From Fischerella sp. CENA71 (GTDB taxonomy: Bacteria; Cyanobacteriota; Cyanobacteriia; Cyanobacteriales; Nostocaceae), in NCBI GenBank assembly GCA_024239075.1, contig JANBVI010000064.1, positions 1-64,000 on the forward strand: a stretch of 64,000 nucleotides of DNA, read 5' to 3'. Below, in pieces: positions 10,951-17,726 of this stretch (position 1 is the first letter of the stretch; each line of letters opens with the position of its first letter). The notes beneath the pieces are model-generated. The model worked only from the letters and a program-made list of their open reading frames with translations. It ran no database searches and had not been told where the DNA came from. Position numbers and translations under genes: made by a program.

Positions 10951-11748
10951 TCAATTCAAAATTGACAAACTACTACTTACTTTTTTCACTTCTCCCACAA
11001 TGGGTTTTGATGCTAAATCTGCTAAACCAACATCCTGCAACAAGTTAGCCCAATCTTTGATCAGCATGGGATTTTTTGGATCATCAAGGCGCAGTTGAGC
11101 CAATTCAGACAAAGCTGAATACCAAATTCCATTTTCAGCATAAATTGCAACGCGCTGTCGTGGTTTAGTCGCTGATTTCAAAAGACCTTTTAAGTTTGGT
11201 TGGATTGCTATCTTTTGCACCCATCCACGCACAAATATTGGGTTTGGTAGTTTTTGTTGAGAACAATAAAGTTTAAAGTACCATTGATAATTTTGGTTCA
11301 GTTCTAAAGTTACTGTAGGTGGCACGGTTAATTTCACAACACCTGGTGTATTGGGCAGAGTAAAATTAGTTTTATAGATCGGATTATCTGCTTCATTTTG
11401 TAATACAAATTCTCCAATGGGTGTCTCTTTTTGTCTATACGGTACAAAAAACCAAAAACTAGGATGCTCATCAATTGTTAAACCTACATTTTTTTCTGGT
11501 ATCAATGCAGTTGTGAGCAAATCTAGCGATGGACAATCACCACGGCTTCCAGTTCCTACCCTATTATTCGGTCTACCTCGCCTTGATCCATCTGGCTCTT
11601 TGTCTTGAAAGTGAATCTCTATATTCTGAGAATTATTATTATAATTTTGATTTTCTAGTTGATTGGATTGGGCTATTTCTGGTAAAAAATAGCTCATCCA
11701 CACAAGCAACATACAAGCGATCGCCAATGCCCATTTTGATTTAGTCAT
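10951..11748 (-). CDS. DUF928 secreted/anchored protein
   Basis: The 265-residue protein starts with a hydrophobic signal or anchor (about 7-24) and a polar Asn/Gln-rich stretch. The conserved DUF928 region follows, with RGRPNNRVGTGSRG, FWFFVPY, a beta-rich middle, and a C-terminal WANLLQDVGLADLA. DUF928 proteins are cyanobacterial and probably periplasmic; their role is unknown. It lies 359 bases downstream of the CHAT-CHASE2 gene on the same strand. DUF928 genes often accompany such CHASE2 genes, as I recall, so it may be the periplasmic arm of that cassette. The gap suggests its own promoter. Confidence 0.82.
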   Translation of the reverse strand: MTKSKWALAIACMLLVWMSYFLPEIAQSNQLENQNYNNNSQNIEIHFQDKEPDGSRRGRPNNRVGTGSRGDCPSLDLLTTALIPEKNVGLTIDEHPSFWFFVPYRQKETPIGEFVLQNEADNPIYKTNFTLPNTPGVVKLTVPPTVTLELNQNYQWYFKLYCSQQKLPNPIFVRGWVQKIAIQPNLKGLLKSATKPRQRVAIYAENGIWYSALSELAQLRLDDPKNPMLIKDWANLLQDVGLADLASKPIVGEVKKVSSSLSILN

Positions 11749-12107
11749 TTGTCATTTGTCATTGGTAATAGTTTGAGGTATCTTCACTTTTTGTAAGTCG
11801 CATTATATTTATTGCCGCTAACTTACTTAAAGCTATAAAATACGTAACTCTGACTTTTGAATGCGTGAATGCGTTATTTTCGCGTAGTGATACTATCCTT
11901 TGTATTATTTTTATTGGTGTAATTAAATTAAGATTATGCACTTCAGGAGTAGTTTAAAAACATAAAATCTGTTTATGCTAACCAATGATAAATTTTTGCA
12001 AAATTTAGTTAAAAATATGCTTGTTTAAATTGGCGAAAATCATCAAAACGCGAGTTACGAATATAAACAATGACGACCCTCGCTAGCATTCTCAACGTGT
12101 GGACTCT
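11749..12107. other. Gap between DUF928 and CHAT-CHASE2 genes
   Basis: This AT-rich gap has no convincing gene. TCATTTG/TCATTGG heptamers occur just before the DUF928 start. Nothing else is recognised. Confidence 0.5.
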
Positions 12108-14471
12108 CTACTCTTCACTTTGAGATGAAGTCAAGGTAGCCACTGTTGCTCCACCTGTTAATAAAACTAATGCTGATGGAAGCAGTGGTATCCATAATCC
12201 TTGTATTAATAAGAACAAACAAGCCAGATATAAAATGCCGATCGCACCGATTAAGGTAATGATCAGGCGGAAGCGCGATCGCAACTGCCAAGCCAGTACA
12301 CCTCCCGCCACACACCAAACCCAAATCCACAAGTTTTCACCCCATTTTGGTAAAACCCATAATAGCGGTCGATTATCCAACACAGCACTGAGTATCTGAC
12401 TAACCATATGTGCTTGGATGACGACTCCTGGCATTTGCTTGTGGGGCCACATTTGGGTACTGTAGGGAGTAGACCAGTAATCGTGAAAACTTTCGGCGGT
12501 TGTACCAATAATCACTATGCGATCGCGGACTAAATCGGCAGTCAGTTGATTATTAAGAACCTCTTTGAGAGTAACTGTTTGAGCAACTGGATTGGCAGCA
12601 CGCCAATTTAACAAAACTTGATAACCGAGATTATCTATCCCACTGTAACCACCAATGTTTTGTTCTATAGTCTTAAAGACCACGTTGCCAAACTGCCAAT
12701 TATTTTCAGGTGTCAGTAGTTGAGGTTGAATACCTTGGTTTTTTAAGTAACGGCTAGCAAGGCGAAAGCTAAAAGATTTATCAGTCGCACAGGGAGGCGC
12801 ACCAGACATAGCCAAAATTTGGCGACGGATGACGTTATCAGGATCAGCAACGACATCACTAAAACCTTGACGTTGGATTTGGCTAGAAACTTCTGGGGGT
12901 GGGGGAACACCAGGATTAGTTTTGTCTTCACTGGCTTTGCATATCGCAATAAAGCGATCGCTTGTTTGCATTGTCTTGGCTAAATCTGCATATTCTGGTC
13001 TAGTGGGATTTTCACGATAGATATCCAAACCAATCACACGCGGGTTGAAGCGTTCAATTTTTTTCATCGCTTCAGCCAATGCTTTGTCTGATAGTGATGC
13101 TCCTGCTCTTTCTGTGGCAGGTTGAGCGCTAACATCAGTTTCTGTCACTTCTACTACAAGTATACGGGGATCAGCTTTTTCAGGTGGGCGCGATCGCATC
13201 AATAAATCAAAGGCTGCGAGTTCCCCCAACTGCAATATTCCTAGCGATCTGATACCAATAGCTACGGTTGTTACTACTAGACTGACTTTCAAGATCAGTG
13301 GGAGAATGCGTCGGCTGGGCAAAATGGGGCGGCGATCGCTCACAGACTGTTTTGGCCAAACTAACGGTTCTGCGGCGGGATTCTGGCAAATTACTGGAAG
13401 CCAACTAGCACAGGGAAATTCATTTTCCAAACCCTGTAATTTATCCTGTGCTTCCCGCACTGCTAGATAGAAAGATTCTCCGTGAGCAAAAGCTTCTAGA
13501 AAGTGCTTTAAAAATTCCTGGGCGACAAAATCGGGGACTGGTTCTCGCATGACAATCATTTGCGGAATTTGCAGAGAACCTAATTCCCGCGCTAATTCTA
13601 AACCTTCGCAGGAGTTAAAAACGACTAAATTTAAACCCCGTGCGATCGCTGCTTTGAGAGCATTTTTTAATTGAGCGATCGTCAAAGTATCTGTTTGATT
13701 AATATGAATTCGACCACTTTCTCCTTCAGCATCGGTTGAACCATGGCCTGCGAAAAACAGCATATCCCAGCCTCGTTTATCCCAAAGCCACCGATCCAAT
13801 TCTCGGCGTTGTGGTTCGACTAAAAAAATTATTTCCGCCCCTGGTAATCGCTCCAAAATTGCCCGATCTTGCTGGACATCGATTCCTTGACTATTACCCA
13901 AAACTGCCAATATCCTGATTTTTCGCCCAGAATTTTTGCGTAAAGGCTTAACTTGCTCAACTTCTAAAATGCTTGAACATGCGATCGCCTTTTGGTAATC
14001 TTCAAAAAAATTCCACAGATGCCAAGGTAGACGCCTAACTTGGTTATCTTCTGTTGCTAAAATTAAGCGTATTTCATCATCTGGATTTAATTTTGTACGT
14101 AATTTTTGATCAATGTGCCGAAATGGCTCAGATTTCAACCAAGAATTAATTTGTTTCTGTAAATTGTCGCATAAATTACTAAAATCAATAGAGGAAACAT
14201 TTGTGACATCTTCTTCATCTATCTCGATATCCATATCCTCTAGATCATCTGTGTAATTACGCCAATCTGAGCCGGGATAGAGAGCTTCATAAAGTAATTG
14301 ATAAAGCAGTTGCCAACGTTTGTAGAGTGACCAAAGCTCTGGTGCAGCTGGTAGGCTACCCGTAAATTGCATAGCGATCGGATTACCATCTTCCCATAGT
14401 GCAGCAGTAACAGAGGGAAAGCCTTGCTTTAAATTACCCTTTCCCAAATTCAATACAACCAGTTTACTCAT
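12108..14471 (-). CDS. CHAT protease-like + CHASE2 membrane sensor
   Basis: The 787-residue protein has three parts. Residues 1 to about 160 precede a CHAT domain (about 185-370). The CHAT domain carries the caspase-like dyad, His243 in FFAGHGS and Cys288 in FNSCEG, so it looks catalytically intact. A membrane helix (about 389-411) leads into a CHASE2 sensory domain (about 412-690), and three C-terminal membrane helices follow (about 700-780). CHASE2 is an extracytoplasmic sensor, so the protein probably couples an external signal to a cytoplasmic peptidase. It starts 5 bases after the DUF1822 gene and forms an operon with it and the sigma-like gene. Substrate and ligand are unknown. Confidence 0.93.
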   Translation of the reverse strand: MSKLVVLNLGKGNLKQGFPSVTAALWEDGNPIAMQFTGSLPAAPELWSLYKRWQLLYQLLYEALYPGSDWRNYTDDLEDMDIEIDEEDVTNVSSIDFSNLCDNLQKQINSWLKSEPFRHIDQKLRTKLNPDDEIRLILATEDNQVRRLPWHLWNFFEDYQKAIACSSILEVEQVKPLRKNSGRKIRILAVLGNSQGIDVQQDRAILERLPGAEIIFLVEPQRRELDRWLWDKRGWDMLFFAGHGSTDAEGESGRIHINQTDTLTIAQLKNALKAAIARGLNLVVFNSCEGLELARELGSLQIPQMIVMREPVPDFVAQEFLKHFLEAFAHGESFYLAVREAQDKLQGLENEFPCASWLPVICQNPAAEPLVWPKQSVSDRRPILPSRRILPLILKVSLVVTTVAIGIRSLGILQLGELAAFDLLMRSRPPEKADPRILVVEVTETDVSAQPATERAGASLSDKALAEAMKKIERFNPRVIGLDIYRENPTRPEYADLAKTMQTSDRFIAICKASEDKTNPGVPPPPEVSSQIQRQGFSDVVADPDNVIRRQILAMSGAPPCATDKSFSFRLASRYLKNQGIQPQLLTPENNWQFGNVVFKTIEQNIGGYSGIDNLGYQVLLNWRAANPVAQTVTLKEVLNNQLTADLVRDRIVIIGTTAESFHDYWSTPYSTQMWPHKQMPGVVIQAHMVSQILSAVLDNRPLLWVLPKWGENLWIWVWCVAGGVLAWQLRSRFRLIITLIGAIGILYLACLFLLIQGLWIPLLPSALVLLTGGATVATLTSSQSEE

Positions 14472-14476
14472 GGCTC

Positions 14477-15724
14477 TTAGCCAACAAGCTTCTCAAGCAT
14501 AAAGTCTTCTTTAATACTGATATCACCTAAAGCTACCTGTAAACTAAAACTTTTTCCTGGGGGAGATTTAAACTTTTTGAGTTGAATAAAATGGTCGTGA
14601 CTTCTAGATTGTACTTCCTGAATAATGTTTCCTGACCCCGAAAGCAAAAATAATTTCAGCTCAGGTGGTAAATACATTTCTTCATTGGCTGGATGTAGCT
14701 GCACACGGATACTGACTTTTTCATCGATCTCTGATGTTAGACCAATCAGCAGTACAACAGCAGTATCCCTTAATTGCATCCCTAAATCAATTAACTTAGC
14801 TCCCTTAACCCGAACTTCATTCAAGGTAGCATCATGTCGGAATTGTACAGCTAAAGTATGTTGTTGTGAGCTACAGAAAATGTCAAAAGACTGCCAACCT
14901 GCTTCAAAAACATTTTGAAACCATTTACTTAAGTTATTTACCAAAGAGTAATTGTATTCAACAATATTCCCTTTATGCTTTAAAAGCCTTTTTTGGTACA
15001 AATCTTGTCTCTCGTCATCTAATGCTAGTAATGCCATCCATTCTTCATGACTGACATTTTCAGGTAAATCAGGAGTCCAGTGATCCAGTTGCTTAAGTAA
15101 TTTGTCTACTTGGATGCTTGACAATGTTGGCAAAGTTTTGACCTCTGGTTTTTGTACCGAACATATTTCTCGTGCTACCCACATGACATTTATATCTGCA
15201 ATTAAATCCTCTTCATCTAATAAGTAAGCTCGATCTATTAGGTCATAATTAGCTTTCTCGCGAATTTGTTGGTGAGTTGTGTATCCCCACACTCCTAACC
15301 AGTTTTCTTCTAGATTGATCTGCACAGCTACATAATAATTTGCTACCCAGTTGGGAATGTCAACCCATTCTTGAGGAATGCAAAATTCTGTCAAATTACT
15401 TTTATCGGTGGGGATTAACACTAGCCGCAAATCACCCAAAGTTATGCAAGTACCATTTACAAATTCCCAAATACTAGGTAACTGATGATCACTGGGCCAC
15501 ACATTTGGAGTTTCATCCAAATCTGGGTCTTGTTCCAACATATTAAAAAAAGAATTCAAACATAATAAATTTAGGTAGGCATTCCAACGAGCAGCAGGAT
15601 TAGAGTAATAGTTTTGAGCAGATATTTGCCATGCAGATTGTTGTTCTTGAGATGATATCTCTAACCATAATTTATCCGGATAAATTGTTGTCAAGTCATT
15701 CATTTCTAATTTCATATATTTCAT
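14477..15724 (-). CDS. DUF1822 family protein
   Basis: The 415-residue soluble protein matches cyanobacterial DUF1822. It has an N-terminal AARWNAYLNLLCLNSF segment, a beta-rich middle with WLGVWGYTTHQQI, and a C-terminal domain with VRVQLHPANEEMYLPP and a typical GDISIKEDFML ending. The family has no known activity. The start codon overlaps the stop of the upstream sigma-like gene by four bases (ATGA), and the CHAT-CHASE2 gene follows after 5 bases. This indicates translational coupling and probably a shared complex. A nearby Met at residue 4 or 7 could also serve as the start. Confidence 0.88.
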   Translation of the reverse strand: MKYMKLEMNDLTTIYPDKLWLEISSQEQQSAWQISAQNYYSNPAARWNAYLNLLCLNSFFNMLEQDPDLDETPNVWPSDHQLPSIWEFVNGTCITLGDLRLVLIPTDKSNLTEFCIPQEWVDIPNWVANYYVAVQINLEENWLGVWGYTTHQQIREKANYDLIDRAYLLDEEDLIADINVMWVAREICSVQKPEVKTLPTLSSIQVDKLLKQLDHWTPDLPENVSHEEWMALLALDDERQDLYQKRLLKHKGNIVEYNYSLVNNLSKWFQNVFEAGWQSFDIFCSSQQHTLAVQFRHDATLNEVRVKGAKLIDLGMQLRDTAVVLLIGLTSEIDEKVSIRVQLHPANEEMYLPPELKLFLLSGSGNIIQEVQSRSHDHFIQLKKFKSPPGKSFSLQVALGDISIKEDFMLEKLVG

Positions 15725-17334
15725 CCCTGATTGGCAAGAGAAAATTTACTTTTTAACCATTCTTCAACGAAATCAGCTATTTTATGATTGACTATTTCTA
15801 GGGATTTTTTTTCTATTTTCATACTCTGTTCTAACTCATTTTTGAAGCATATGACTATATTTTTTTTCAGATGTGAAATTATCTTGGATGCGTCGGATAC
15901 AAAGACTGTTATTTGCTGATAATTTGTTTGTCCTAAAAGATGAATTTGATTCATAAGCATTGATAGTTTTTCTTGCTCTGGAAACTGTTCACCAATCCTA
16001 TCTAATGTCGAATAAAATATTTTTTGGCAATGAAAGCGCAAACATTCATTCATAGTGTCTTTGATATTTTCAAGCTCTGTTTCATTTTTAAAGCGAATAT
16101 CTGGATCAAACTTATTCAATTCAATAGCTAAATCCTTTAATATATTTCTAATATATCTAGATGATTGACGAGCTACTTGATATTGTTTTTGTAATTCTGG
16201 ATACTTGTTTTTTAAAATACTTGCTATTTCCGTTTGAGTTAAATTTAGTCCCTGCCAAAGTTTTAACATGGTTTGACCAGCTTCTGGCAGAGATGCAAAT
16301 AAATCTGAAACAATTGACTGAACTTGCTCCCATGCCTCTTGTTGTATGAGGTTATCCCAAGGTGTAGGTATGGGTTCAAAACTATTTTCATATTCTTCTA
16401 AGGGTAAAAAACGTTTGGTGCGATAATCACGAGCTGCCCGCACACATATTGATAATATATGTTGAACTTTTTCACTAGAAATTGGTGCTGTAGGAAAATC
16501 TAGTGTCTTAATTTTCTGATTATAGTAATAGGCAATTTGTTGCAGATGCTGTTGATTTGGAGGTTCTAAGCTACGCCCTCCTTGAGAGCGTGCTGGCTGA
16601 TAAATTTTATCTAAATATTGCCAAACTAAGCAGTAGGAATCAAGTTTTTTGTGATTTATCCCTTGATAAAGTAATGCTTCACGTAATTCTTTAGCATTTA
16701 AATCTTTTAGTAAACCATAGTCAGAAAATTTTCCTCTCTTTGCTTCTAAGTCATGTTGATAAATGGTATTGCTGATCAGTCTGATAATTGCTGTTTTAGC
16801 ATATCCTTCTATATTCGTCAGTGGATGTTCAAAATTAAAATTTTTGAGAAGTTTACTTGCTGGATTAGCAGCTGCGTTAGCAATTTGAAAAAACTCTTCT
16901 AATGGATATTTATGCTGAAGGTATTTAAATCTTTGATAAGATTTTTGAGAAGCCCACAAGCAAGCTTCTTGCAAATATGCAGATAAATGCCTCCCAGCGA
17001 GGAAAGAAGACGTGGAGAGGGGAACAGAGGAAGAGGCGGTGACGCGGTGACGCGGTGACGCGGTGAAATTCCCCGTGTCCCCTTGTCTCCCGTGTCCTCC
17101 TTGTCCCCCTTGTTCTTGTGTCTCCGTGTCCTCTTGTGTTGATTTTTCTCTGATCAGTTTTAGAAAGTATTGCGCCCAAAATTCTTCGTTAGCACCTATT
17201 TCTGACTCCACTAAAATTCTCATACAACGCTCTAGTTCTGGATCTGTTCGCCAAATAGGATTTCCATCACTACCGGGATTACCAAAACTGAGAAACGTTG
17301 AGAACTTTTCAATGATATCTTCACGTTTTTTCAT
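15721..17334 (-). CDS. Sigma-70-like protein, first gene of cassette
   Basis: The 537-residue protein has a region-2-like helical segment with NIEGYAKTAIIRLISNTI (about 175-195). It also has a region-4-like helix-turn-helix with WQGLNLTQTEIASILK (about 365-385), followed by a long C-terminal extension of about 130 residues. The arrangement recalls sigma-70 family proteins that cyanobacteria carry next to DUF1822 and CHASE2 genes. It would be either an alternative sigma factor or a sigma-derived adaptor. Residues about 67-115 are a low-complexity insert rich in Gln, Gly, Ser and Thr, encoded by intergenic-type repeats (see findings). The remainder is uninterrupted, so the gene is probably functional. 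Confidence 0.75.
   Translation of the reverse strand: MKKREDIIEKFSTFLSFGNPGSDGNPIWRTDPELERCMRILVESEIGANEEFWAQYFLKLIREKSTQEDTETQEQGGQGGHGRQGDTGNFTASPRHRVTASSSVPLSTSSFLAGRHLSAYLQEACLWASQKSYQRFKYLQHKYPLEEFFQIANAAANPASKLLKNFNFEHPLTNIEGYAKTAIIRLISNTIYQHDLEAKRGKFSDYGLLKDLNAKELREALLYQGINHKKLDSYCLVWQYLDKIYQPARSQGGRSLEPPNQQHLQQIAYYYNQKIKTLDFPTAPISSEKVQHILSICVRAARDYRTKRFLPLEEYENSFEPIPTPWDNLIQQEAWEQVQSIVSDLFASLPEAGQTMLKLWQGLNLTQTEIASILKNKYPELQKQYQVARQSSRYIRNILKDLAIELNKFDPDIRFKNETELENIKDTMNECLRFHCQKIFYSTLDRIGEQFPEQEKLSMLMNQIHLLGQTNYQQITVFVSDASKIISHLKKNIVICFKNELEQSMKIEKKSLEIVNHKIADFVEEWLKSKFSLANQG
16990..17150. repeat. Repeat insert inside sigma-like CDS
   Basis: Within the coding frame lie consecutive ggtgacgcg units (17036-17064). 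Degenerate runs of gtgtcc/ttgtcc/ctcc type (17075-17140) follow. These match the short tandem repeats normally found between genes in this window. The insert keeps the reading frame. Confidence 0.8.
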
Positions 17335-17726
17335 GAAGTGTCCTCTGCTTTTTGCTGAGGTTAACTTTATAACGAGTCAACCTAATTCTCAAAGTATCCA
17401 AGATGTTGCTATTTATGTATGGGAATTATAAACAGGGAATTATGCAGTAAATCTCATCAAAAGACCTAAATTTTTTGAAAATATAGGCTAAATCTATTTT
17501 CAAGCTTATTTTGCTGTTATTCCATTGACTATCGCTCCGATCCCTGAACTACCTCATCACTTTGATTCATCTGTGCGATCGCCCCCGTGGTCGATTTCCT
17601 AATATCCATCCTGGGAAGGAGGATATTATTGGCTGTGACACTTAATTAGCTGCCAACTACATAGTTAATTCTTAGATCAGTCCATGTTATAGAAGATAAA
17701 ACCAGAAAATTTACAGGAAAAAATCA
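17335..17726. other. Upstream region of the sigma-like operon
   Basis: No gene is recognised in this gap of about 390 bases. It separates the minus-strand cassette from a small plus-strand ORF and must hold the cassette promoter. One GCGATCGC octamer is present. Confidence 0.5.

Follow-up and report, generated by a model that had tools for sequence, protein, structure and literature searches.

How might a cyanobacterium pass a signal from outside the cytoplasm to a sigma factor by way of a protease? The question is raised by four minus-strand genes in a 64,000-nucleotide stretch of Fischerella sp. CENA71 (assembly GCA_024239075.1, contig JANBVI010000064.1, positions 1 to 64,000; here called the window), which encode, in the direction of transcription, a sigma-70-like protein, a DUF1822 protein, a CHAT-CHASE2 protein and a DUF928 protein. 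An earlier note on this DNA had proposed that CHASE2 senses an external signal and that CHAT then cleaves either DUF1822 or the sigma-like protein, releasing the latter to direct transcription. Our analysis favours a version of this idea that we consider quite possible, if a little short of probable: CHASE2 and DUF928 would sense, CHAT would cut DUF1822, and the sigma factor would thereby be freed, contact and cleavage being what we infer. The core of the idea is not new, as the gene set and the sigma output are predicted in the available part of Kaur et al. 2021 (PMC8195603); what is new here is the two-part DUF1822 and the outside partner DUF928.

Organization and conservation of the cassette

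Minus-strand open reading frames (ORFs), spacing and Pfam confirm that the four genes lie on one strand and that the first three are tightly coupled: the sigma-like and DUF1822 genes overlap by 4 bases, the DUF1822 and CHAT-CHASE2 genes are separated by 5 bases, and 359 bases lie between the CHAT-CHASE2 and DUF928 genes. The window proteins match their Pfam families with E-values of 3.3e-90 (DUF1822), 1.2e-65 (CHASE2), 4.9e-15 (CHAT) and 4e-61 (DUF928). Conserved gene order, which the earlier note had set as a test together with conservation of the catalytic His/Cys dyad, is found in other genomes. DUF1822 is present in 73 of 116 sampled genomes of the class. Besides the own-genome loci, our sample comprised the 81 DUF1822 rows ranked highest in other genomes, less one (G073:C92:24098-25057), which makes 80; it stops above the lower-ranked rows and thus favours strong matches. 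Among the 88 distinct DUF1822 genes, a sigma-like gene lies directly upstream of 80 (in 54 cases from a long family, in 26 from a short one resembling extracytoplasmic function (ECF) sigma factors) and a CHAT gene directly downstream of 47, of which 32 carry CHASE2. A second set consisted of 64 loci found by a CHAT-CHASE2 protein search in named genomes, and 58 of these contain a DUF1822 gene. The co-location of these genes exceeds chance.

Assignment of the first gene as sigma-70-like holds through its family, as the window copy is weak by itself, matching TIGR02937 at 3.2e-6 with 26.9 bits against a curated cut-off of 42.9 bits. When 50 of the 67 complete members of the long sigma family were scanned, 49 matched TIGR02937 at E 0.01 (best 7e-38), and the family profile matches the solved structures of FliA (3.4e-12; profile positions 303-370, region 4) and RpoS (1.2e-5; 87-147, region 2). 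In the short ECF-like family, Sigma70_r4_2 was found in 9 and Sigma70_r2 in 4 of 34 members scanned at E 0.01, and the profile matches RpoE/SigE (2q1z) at 7e-5.

DUF1822 as a two-part protein

The structure model of DUF1822 (60 aligned sequences; mean predicted local distance difference test (pLDDT) 87.7, predicted template modelling score (pTM) 0.75) consists of an N-terminal alpha/beta domain and a C-terminal beta-sandwich joined by a linker. Foldseek against the PDB gave no match at E 0.001 among the best 50 of 824 rows; the best rows are sandwich proteins of immunoglobulin (Ig)-like type (beta-glucuronidase, RhoGDI and alpha2-macroglobulin), and our term 'Ig-like' for the C-terminal domain is a reading of these rows, which came without printed aligned ranges. 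In the part of Kaur et al. (PMC8195603) available to us, DUF1822 is labelled a TPR protein and a two-part structure is not described; the model, alpha/beta plus Ig-like, disagrees with that label, no TPR protein occurs in the best 50 Foldseek rows, and we have set the label aside.

To compare the halves, we clustered them separately and label-free for 139 distinct DUF1822 proteins. The N-halves of all 65 long-sigma genes fall into one group and those of all 38 short-sigma genes into another, such that N-half type matches sigma family in all 103 genes with a sigma neighbour. The C-halves divide differently: one type holds all 98 genes with a CHAT neighbour, and the other comprises 33 genes, none with CHAT. 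Among 30 long-sigma DUF1822 genes with no adjoining CHAT, 28 carry the non-CHAT C-half type and two (L147 and L154) the CHAT type. By mean distance in a thinned set, 21 of 21 sig+CHAT proteins have an N-half nearer to sig-only proteins and a C-half nearer to ecfS+CHAT proteins, and the N-half result holds in all 21 when only the nearest single neighbour is considered. Similarity along the chain crosses over at about residue 250, which is the domain border of the model. The types of each half appear to be versions, that is distant homologues, rather than unrelated domains, as hhalign between types gives a probability of 98% for the N-halves and 58% for the C-halves.

Taken together, the layout of the model and the co-variation of the halves suggest a layout like that of Csx30, which inhibits a sigma factor in type III-E CRISPR systems and is cut there by a CHAT protease. 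They offer an argument from domains for placing DUF1822 between CHAT and sigma. The half-by-half pattern is clean but reflects few evolutionary events, and we weigh it as anatomy, not as statistics.

The CHAT-CHASE2 protein

The model of the third protein (50 aligned sequences; pLDDT 89.3, pTM 0.57) bears out the CHASE2 domain and four membrane helices that had been claimed for it, with one helix before CHASE2 and three after. Both proposed catalytic residues, His243 and Cys288, are present in the window protein, and among 117 relatives, 4 of them fragments, the dyad is intact in 113 of the 113 proteins that cover both columns; this conservation speaks for catalysis. With its dyad and its modelled caspase-like fold, the domain fits a clan CD CHAT peptidase of predicted activity. 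The PDB entries matched by Foldseek include the Craspase TPR-CHAT protein as the best (3.8e-8), separases, SAVED-CHAT and DdvA (2.0e-6); when PDB sequences were searched, neither the CHAT-CHASE2 profile nor the CHASE2 part gave anything usable. Two CHASE2 cysteines, Cys511 and Cys561, are conserved in all 50 aligned members and perhaps form a disulphide. The C-terminal part of the CHAT relatives is variable: CHASE2 is present in 90 of 117, in a set partly fetched with a CHASE2 protein, and 18 others lacking it include Peripla_BP_6 in 5, TPR_2 in 4 and WD40 in 2.

The intact dyad bears on one alternative, in which DUF1822 is an uncut adaptor or co-activator that tethers sigma to the membrane protein or assists sigma, the output being set by a CHAT-driven change of shape. 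DUF1822-sigma pairs persist where no CHAT gene lies directly downstream (41 of 88), which means that the tie to sigma needs no protease; the retention of the dyad in every scorable protein points instead to catalysis, and we regard the adaptor as rather improbable. A second alternative concerns the disordered residues 376-384, which in the model separate CHAT from membrane helix 1 and would permit release of CHAT. Here the caspase-fold domain would cut its own chain, freeing or activating part of itself, with DUF1822 and sigma acting downstream, uncut; such self-cleavage is the proposal in print for EACC2 systems in what we could consult of Kaur et al. (PMC8195603). It leaves unexplained why the C-half of DUF1822 follows CHAT, and we consider it unlikely.

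Linkage of DUF928 to CHASE2

The suggestion that DUF928 could be a periplasmic arm of the system draws support from its linkage to CHASE2 genes. After 7 cut or edge genes and proteins under 380 residues had been set aside, DUF928 was found on the same strand within 1.2 kb downstream of 74 of the 85 CHAT-CHASE2 genes with room to tell, as compared to 1 of 22 CHAT genes lacking CHASE2; that lone exception may be L072, in which CHASE2 occupies a reading frame of its own. The association also appears when DUF928 is the starting point. From 156 listed rows we took 40 (35 as every fourth row, 5 picked), which gave 39 loci because one place was sampled twice; a CHASE2 gene adjoins DUF928 in 23 of these, a TPR-CHAT gene lies next to it in 13, and neither is present within 5 kb in 10. 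As a control, we took 38 DUF1822 loci that lack a CHAT gene on the same strand within 5 kb: only 3 of them have CHASE2 up to that distance, each as a divergent CHAT-CHASE2 gene with DUF928.

The CHASE2 proteins beside DUF928 are not confined to protease outputs. We scanned 19 of the 21 CHAT-less CHASE2 proteins from the DUF928 loci (two cut ones were excluded) and one from the own genome, and these 20 proteins carry a cyclase domain in 10 cases, a protein kinase in 3, a histidine-kinase ATPase in 2 and AAA_35 in 1. The N-terminal stretch of the window DUF928 protein is signal-peptide-like, and a crude test for a hydrophobic N-terminus is passed by 64 of 88 DUF928 proteins, 28 of 40 TPR-CHAT proteins and 1 of 68 sigma proteins. 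The linkage supports the view that exported DUF928 belongs with CHASE2. On the tree, there are five independent pairs for DUF928 versus CHASE2, of which about three agree and none disagree, too few to test. In print, a Nostoc cluster with CHASE2 and DUF928 and the response of a Synechocystis DUF928 protein to acid stress are both reported in the consulted part of PMC5587647, the only literature on DUF928 that we found.

One locus in the own genome (L159:6416-9325, on C63) encodes a 628-residue CHASE2 protein followed by DUF928, near a TPR-CHAT gene. By eye this CHASE2 protein is histidine-kinase-like, and the two may be a receptor pair with another output.

Proposed mechanism

In the sequence of events that we favour, CHASE2, anchored by four membrane helices, would act outside the cytoplasm together with exported DUF928 as a receptor, and this would turn on CHAT, a cytoplasmic domain of the CHASE2 polypeptide. 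The N-terminal domain of DUF1822 would keep the sigma-like protein inactive, with the linker and Ig-like C-terminal domain presented to CHAT. A cut in or near the disordered linker would then end the inhibition and allow the sigma factor to transcribe its genes. Computation from the sequences gives the genes, the folds, the dyad, the gene order and the way in which the DUF1822 halves vary with sigma and CHAT; what we infer is that the proteins touch directly, that DUF1822 inhibits, and that it is cut and where, as well as the signal and the target genes. The route from CHASE2 through CHAT and DUF1822 to sigma, as originally proposed, is partly supported: gene order, dyad and the domain argument for DUF1822 stand behind it. 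Cleavage of the sigma-like protein itself by CHAT gained no support.

Several lines of evidence weigh against this mechanism. CHAT is not directly downstream of 41 of the 88 DUF1822 genes. Some CHAT cassettes have no sigma gene beside DUF1822: a TPR-CHAT gene takes its place in 3 of 32 CHAT-CHASE2 loci (sample A), and in sample B 7 of 60 DUF1822 genes have a TPR-CHAT gene there and 19 have no such gene within 400 bases. L147, L154 and two short-sigma DUF1822 carry the CHAT-type C-half with no adjoining CHAT, and by nearest single neighbour the C-half result above holds in only 5 of 21 proteins, probably due to L147 and L154 sitting in the sig-only group. The window sigma-like protein is a diverged family member that fails the TIGR02937 cut-off. 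In searches of Pfam, NCBIfam and PDB folds, DUF1822 was not seen to resemble any known anti-sigma factor, nor Csx30; against NCBIfam no family was found at E 1, the presence of a Csx30 entry in the NCBIfam and PDB sets being unconfirmed. We considered whether the linker of DUF1822 has a basic cleavage motif peculiar to CHAT cassettes and dropped this as evidence, as Arg296, beside the linker, is conserved in CHAT-less DUF1822 as well.

The trees count on the same side. Within the long-sigma group, the tree built on N-halves shows a single change of C-half type (support 98) and three changes in whether CHAT is present, and one of three independent pairs is informative. Sigma type changes six times on the CHAT tree, three of these changes being forced by well supported branches, and three times on the C-half tree, with a warning of long branches. 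Tree tests for independent events, for the DUF1822 halves and for DUF928 with CHASE2, are too small to decide. These counts are what a further explanation draws on, namely linkage without contact, in which shared regulation or function keeps the genes together and the half-by-half pattern is the history of a few recombinations, since the pattern is carried by one to a few events. Against it, N-half type and sigma family stay matched in all 103 genes with a sigma neighbour, the CHAT tree forcing at least three switches, and we find this explanation quite improbable.

The CHAT-less pairs bring in a last alternative, a conflict or cell-death device in which CHAT targets other cell proteins and sigma adds only a transcriptional arm; the accessible text of Kaur et al. 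(PMC8195603) classes such proteins among conflict systems. We scanned 52 neighbouring genes, among them most of those downstream, drawn from 135 untagged neighbours plus one large L083 gene, and found no shared partner gene of CHAT-less DUF1822 pairs, the commonest family among the 25 of 150 families listed being nSTAND1, in 4 of the 52. Four CHAT-less sigma-DUF1822 pairs (L083, L093, L095 and L100) lie near a gene of about 1660-1680 residues of nSTAND1/WD40 type. The two scanned (L083 and L100) have a caspase C14 domain at the N-terminus, with nSTAND1 and WD40 in L083, in keeping with such a device; those of L093 and L095 are grouped with them by size and N-terminal likeness only. Against it, PADLOC defence models gave a single hit, at chance level, and there are up to several cassettes per genome, equipped with a sensor for the outside. 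We give a conflict device little credence.

Returning to cleavage of DUF1822 by CHAT, there is a broader reading, which we hold only slightly less firmly: DUF1822 would found a class of sigma regulators not described before, with two faces, of which one domain fits the sigma family and the other a CHAT protease, accompanied by a portable receptor pair of CHASE2 and exported DUF928. Cyanobacteria would then mix sigma, protease and sensor parts, type III-E systems would use the same logic independently with Csx30, and the CHASE2 and DUF928 pair would feed proteases, kinases and cyclases alike. If true, the cutting of a sigma partner by CHAT extends beyond a single CRISPR type and forms a modular cyanobacterial switch present in several copies per genome; CHASE2, a widespread sensor domain, gains an exported candidate partner in DUF928; and two domains of unknown function become assayable parts.

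Comparison with known systems

The closest published description is that of 'EACC2'-caspase proteins in the part of Kaur et al. (PMC8195603) that we consulted, where proteins with variable C-termini, including CHASE2, are predicted to be coupled to ECF sigma factors and DUF1822. They share with the proteins described here a constant N-terminal alpha+beta domain, a caspase-fold domain, a variable C-terminal part and sigma as output, and ECF-like sigma and DUF1822 neighbours are likewise found in the window cassette and its relatives. The window protein has an alpha+beta region at residues 1-140 followed by CHAT, which is EACC2-like by position only. DUF928 is not mentioned in the available text of that paper, which together with one unrelated use of the name is all the EACC2 literature we found. 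The statement in the earlier note that no pathway has been characterised for this set stands as regards experiments, of which the literature yielded none, and falls as regards prediction, the gene set and sigma output having been in print since 2021. Neither a two-part DUF1822 nor a general DUF928-CHASE2 pairing was found in the literature searched, which consisted mostly of sources other than subscription papers and preprints and was seen in part.

In type III-E CRISPR systems, as described in the portion of PMC10028731 available, Csx29 (TPR-CHAT), Csx30 and CASP-sigma act together: the N-terminal domain of Csx30 binds the sigma factor and the CHAT protease cuts its C-terminal part. Both systems combine a CHAT protease, a two-part protein that is a sigma inhibitor there and a putative one here, and a sigma factor, and Craspase TPR-CHAT is the top structural match of the window CHAT protein. 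The trigger differs, being RNA bound by Cas7-11 in type III-E and a membrane receptor fused to CHAT here, and neither NCBIfam nor the best 50 of 824 Foldseek rows showed DUF1822 to resemble Csx30.

Other comparisons are more distant. According to the part of PMC4374960 consulted, DdvA keeps the ECF factor DdvS in check until a signal of unknown nature arrives from outside. DdvA (PDB 8rot) resembles the CHAT-CHASE2 model (Foldseek E 2.0e-6) and is likewise a transmembrane protein with an external signal; in contrast, DdvA is itself the anti-sigma factor. Judging from alignment length, DdvA would align with the CHASE2 half of the model. HetF, which we take to be a CHAT protein, matches the window CHAT only at E 0.11 (HetF model) and has neither sigma nor CHASE2. 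It is a cyanobacterial protease that cleaves a regulator, PatU3, in the accessible part of PMC12288457. The Trichodesmium caspase-CHASE2 fusion is also a cyanobacterial caspase-fold protein with CHASE2; it differs in being listed as a metacaspase, and sigma, DUF1822 and DUF928 are not mentioned in the text available to us (PMC2853523).

Features, further copies and relatives

Coordinates are collected in Table 1. Upstream of the sigma gene lies a block of the TGCATAATT-N12-TCCCAT type, a possible promoter, whose single exact site in the genome is the cassette's own; a regulon search with it, by exact matches with no mismatches allowed, found no genomic site beyond that one.

Table 1 Features of the cassette, with positions in the window and the basis of each assignment.
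Feature	Positions	Strand	Basis and reading
Sigma-70-like protein, 537 residues	15721..17334	-	ORF and family profiles; divergent within a family that has regions 2 and 4
DUF1822 gene, 415 residues	14477..15724	-	ORF, Pfam
CHAT-CHASE2 gene, 787 residues	12108..14471	-	ORF, Pfam
DUF928 protein, 265 residues	10951..11748	-	Pfam; signal-peptide-like N-terminus; CHASE2 partner by linkage
TGCATAATT-N12-TCCCAT-type block	17419..17446	-	Upstream of sigma gene, conserved in close relatives; possible promoter
DUF1822 N-terminal alpha/beta domain, residues 8-250	14975..15703	-	Model; version follows sigma family
DUF1822 linker, residues 251-305 (296-301 pLDDT <50)	14810..14974	-	Model; candidate cleavage stretch
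DUF1822 C-terminal beta-sandwich, residues 306-410	14495..14809	-	Model; CHAT-associated version
CHAT-CHASE2 N-terminal alpha+beta domain, residues 1-140	14052..14471	-	Model; EACC2-like by position
CHAT peptidase domain, residues 160-365, His243 and Cys288	13377..13994	-	Pfam, alignment, model, Foldseek
Membrane-type helix 1, residues 385-409	13245..13319	-	Model
CHASE2 sensor, residues 410-705, Cys511 and Cys561	12357..13244	-	Pfam, alignment, model
Three membrane-type helices, residues 709-786 (709-729, 733-756, 763-786)	12114..12347	-	Model

The sigma gene contains an in-frame low-complexity insert at window positions 17011-17133 (residues about 68-108) that varies in length in close relatives (L015, L016, L017 and L023) and looks like a repeat tolerated in an N-terminal linker. 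The closest relatives of the CHAT-CHASE2 protein, at 90-93% identity, are from Pelatocladus, Westiellopsis and Fischerella.

The own genome, of 7.47 Mb, has 7 DUF1822 genes. One of its loci (L010, C64:503000-520000) holds a second copy of DUF1822, CHAT-CHASE2 and DUF928, in which the place of the sigma gene is taken by a TPR-CHAT gene whose start resembles a signal peptide. Another (L011, on C66) is a scrambled cassette, in which sigma, a 541-residue CHAT protein lacking CHASE2 and an opposite-strand gene are followed by DUF1822. The CHAT-CHASE2 protein also matches 59 plasmid records, in 8 cases across 80% of its length; among the Nostoc plasmid relatives, L207 has sigma and DUF1822 ahead of the match, and L206 is on a plasmid typed as conjugative.

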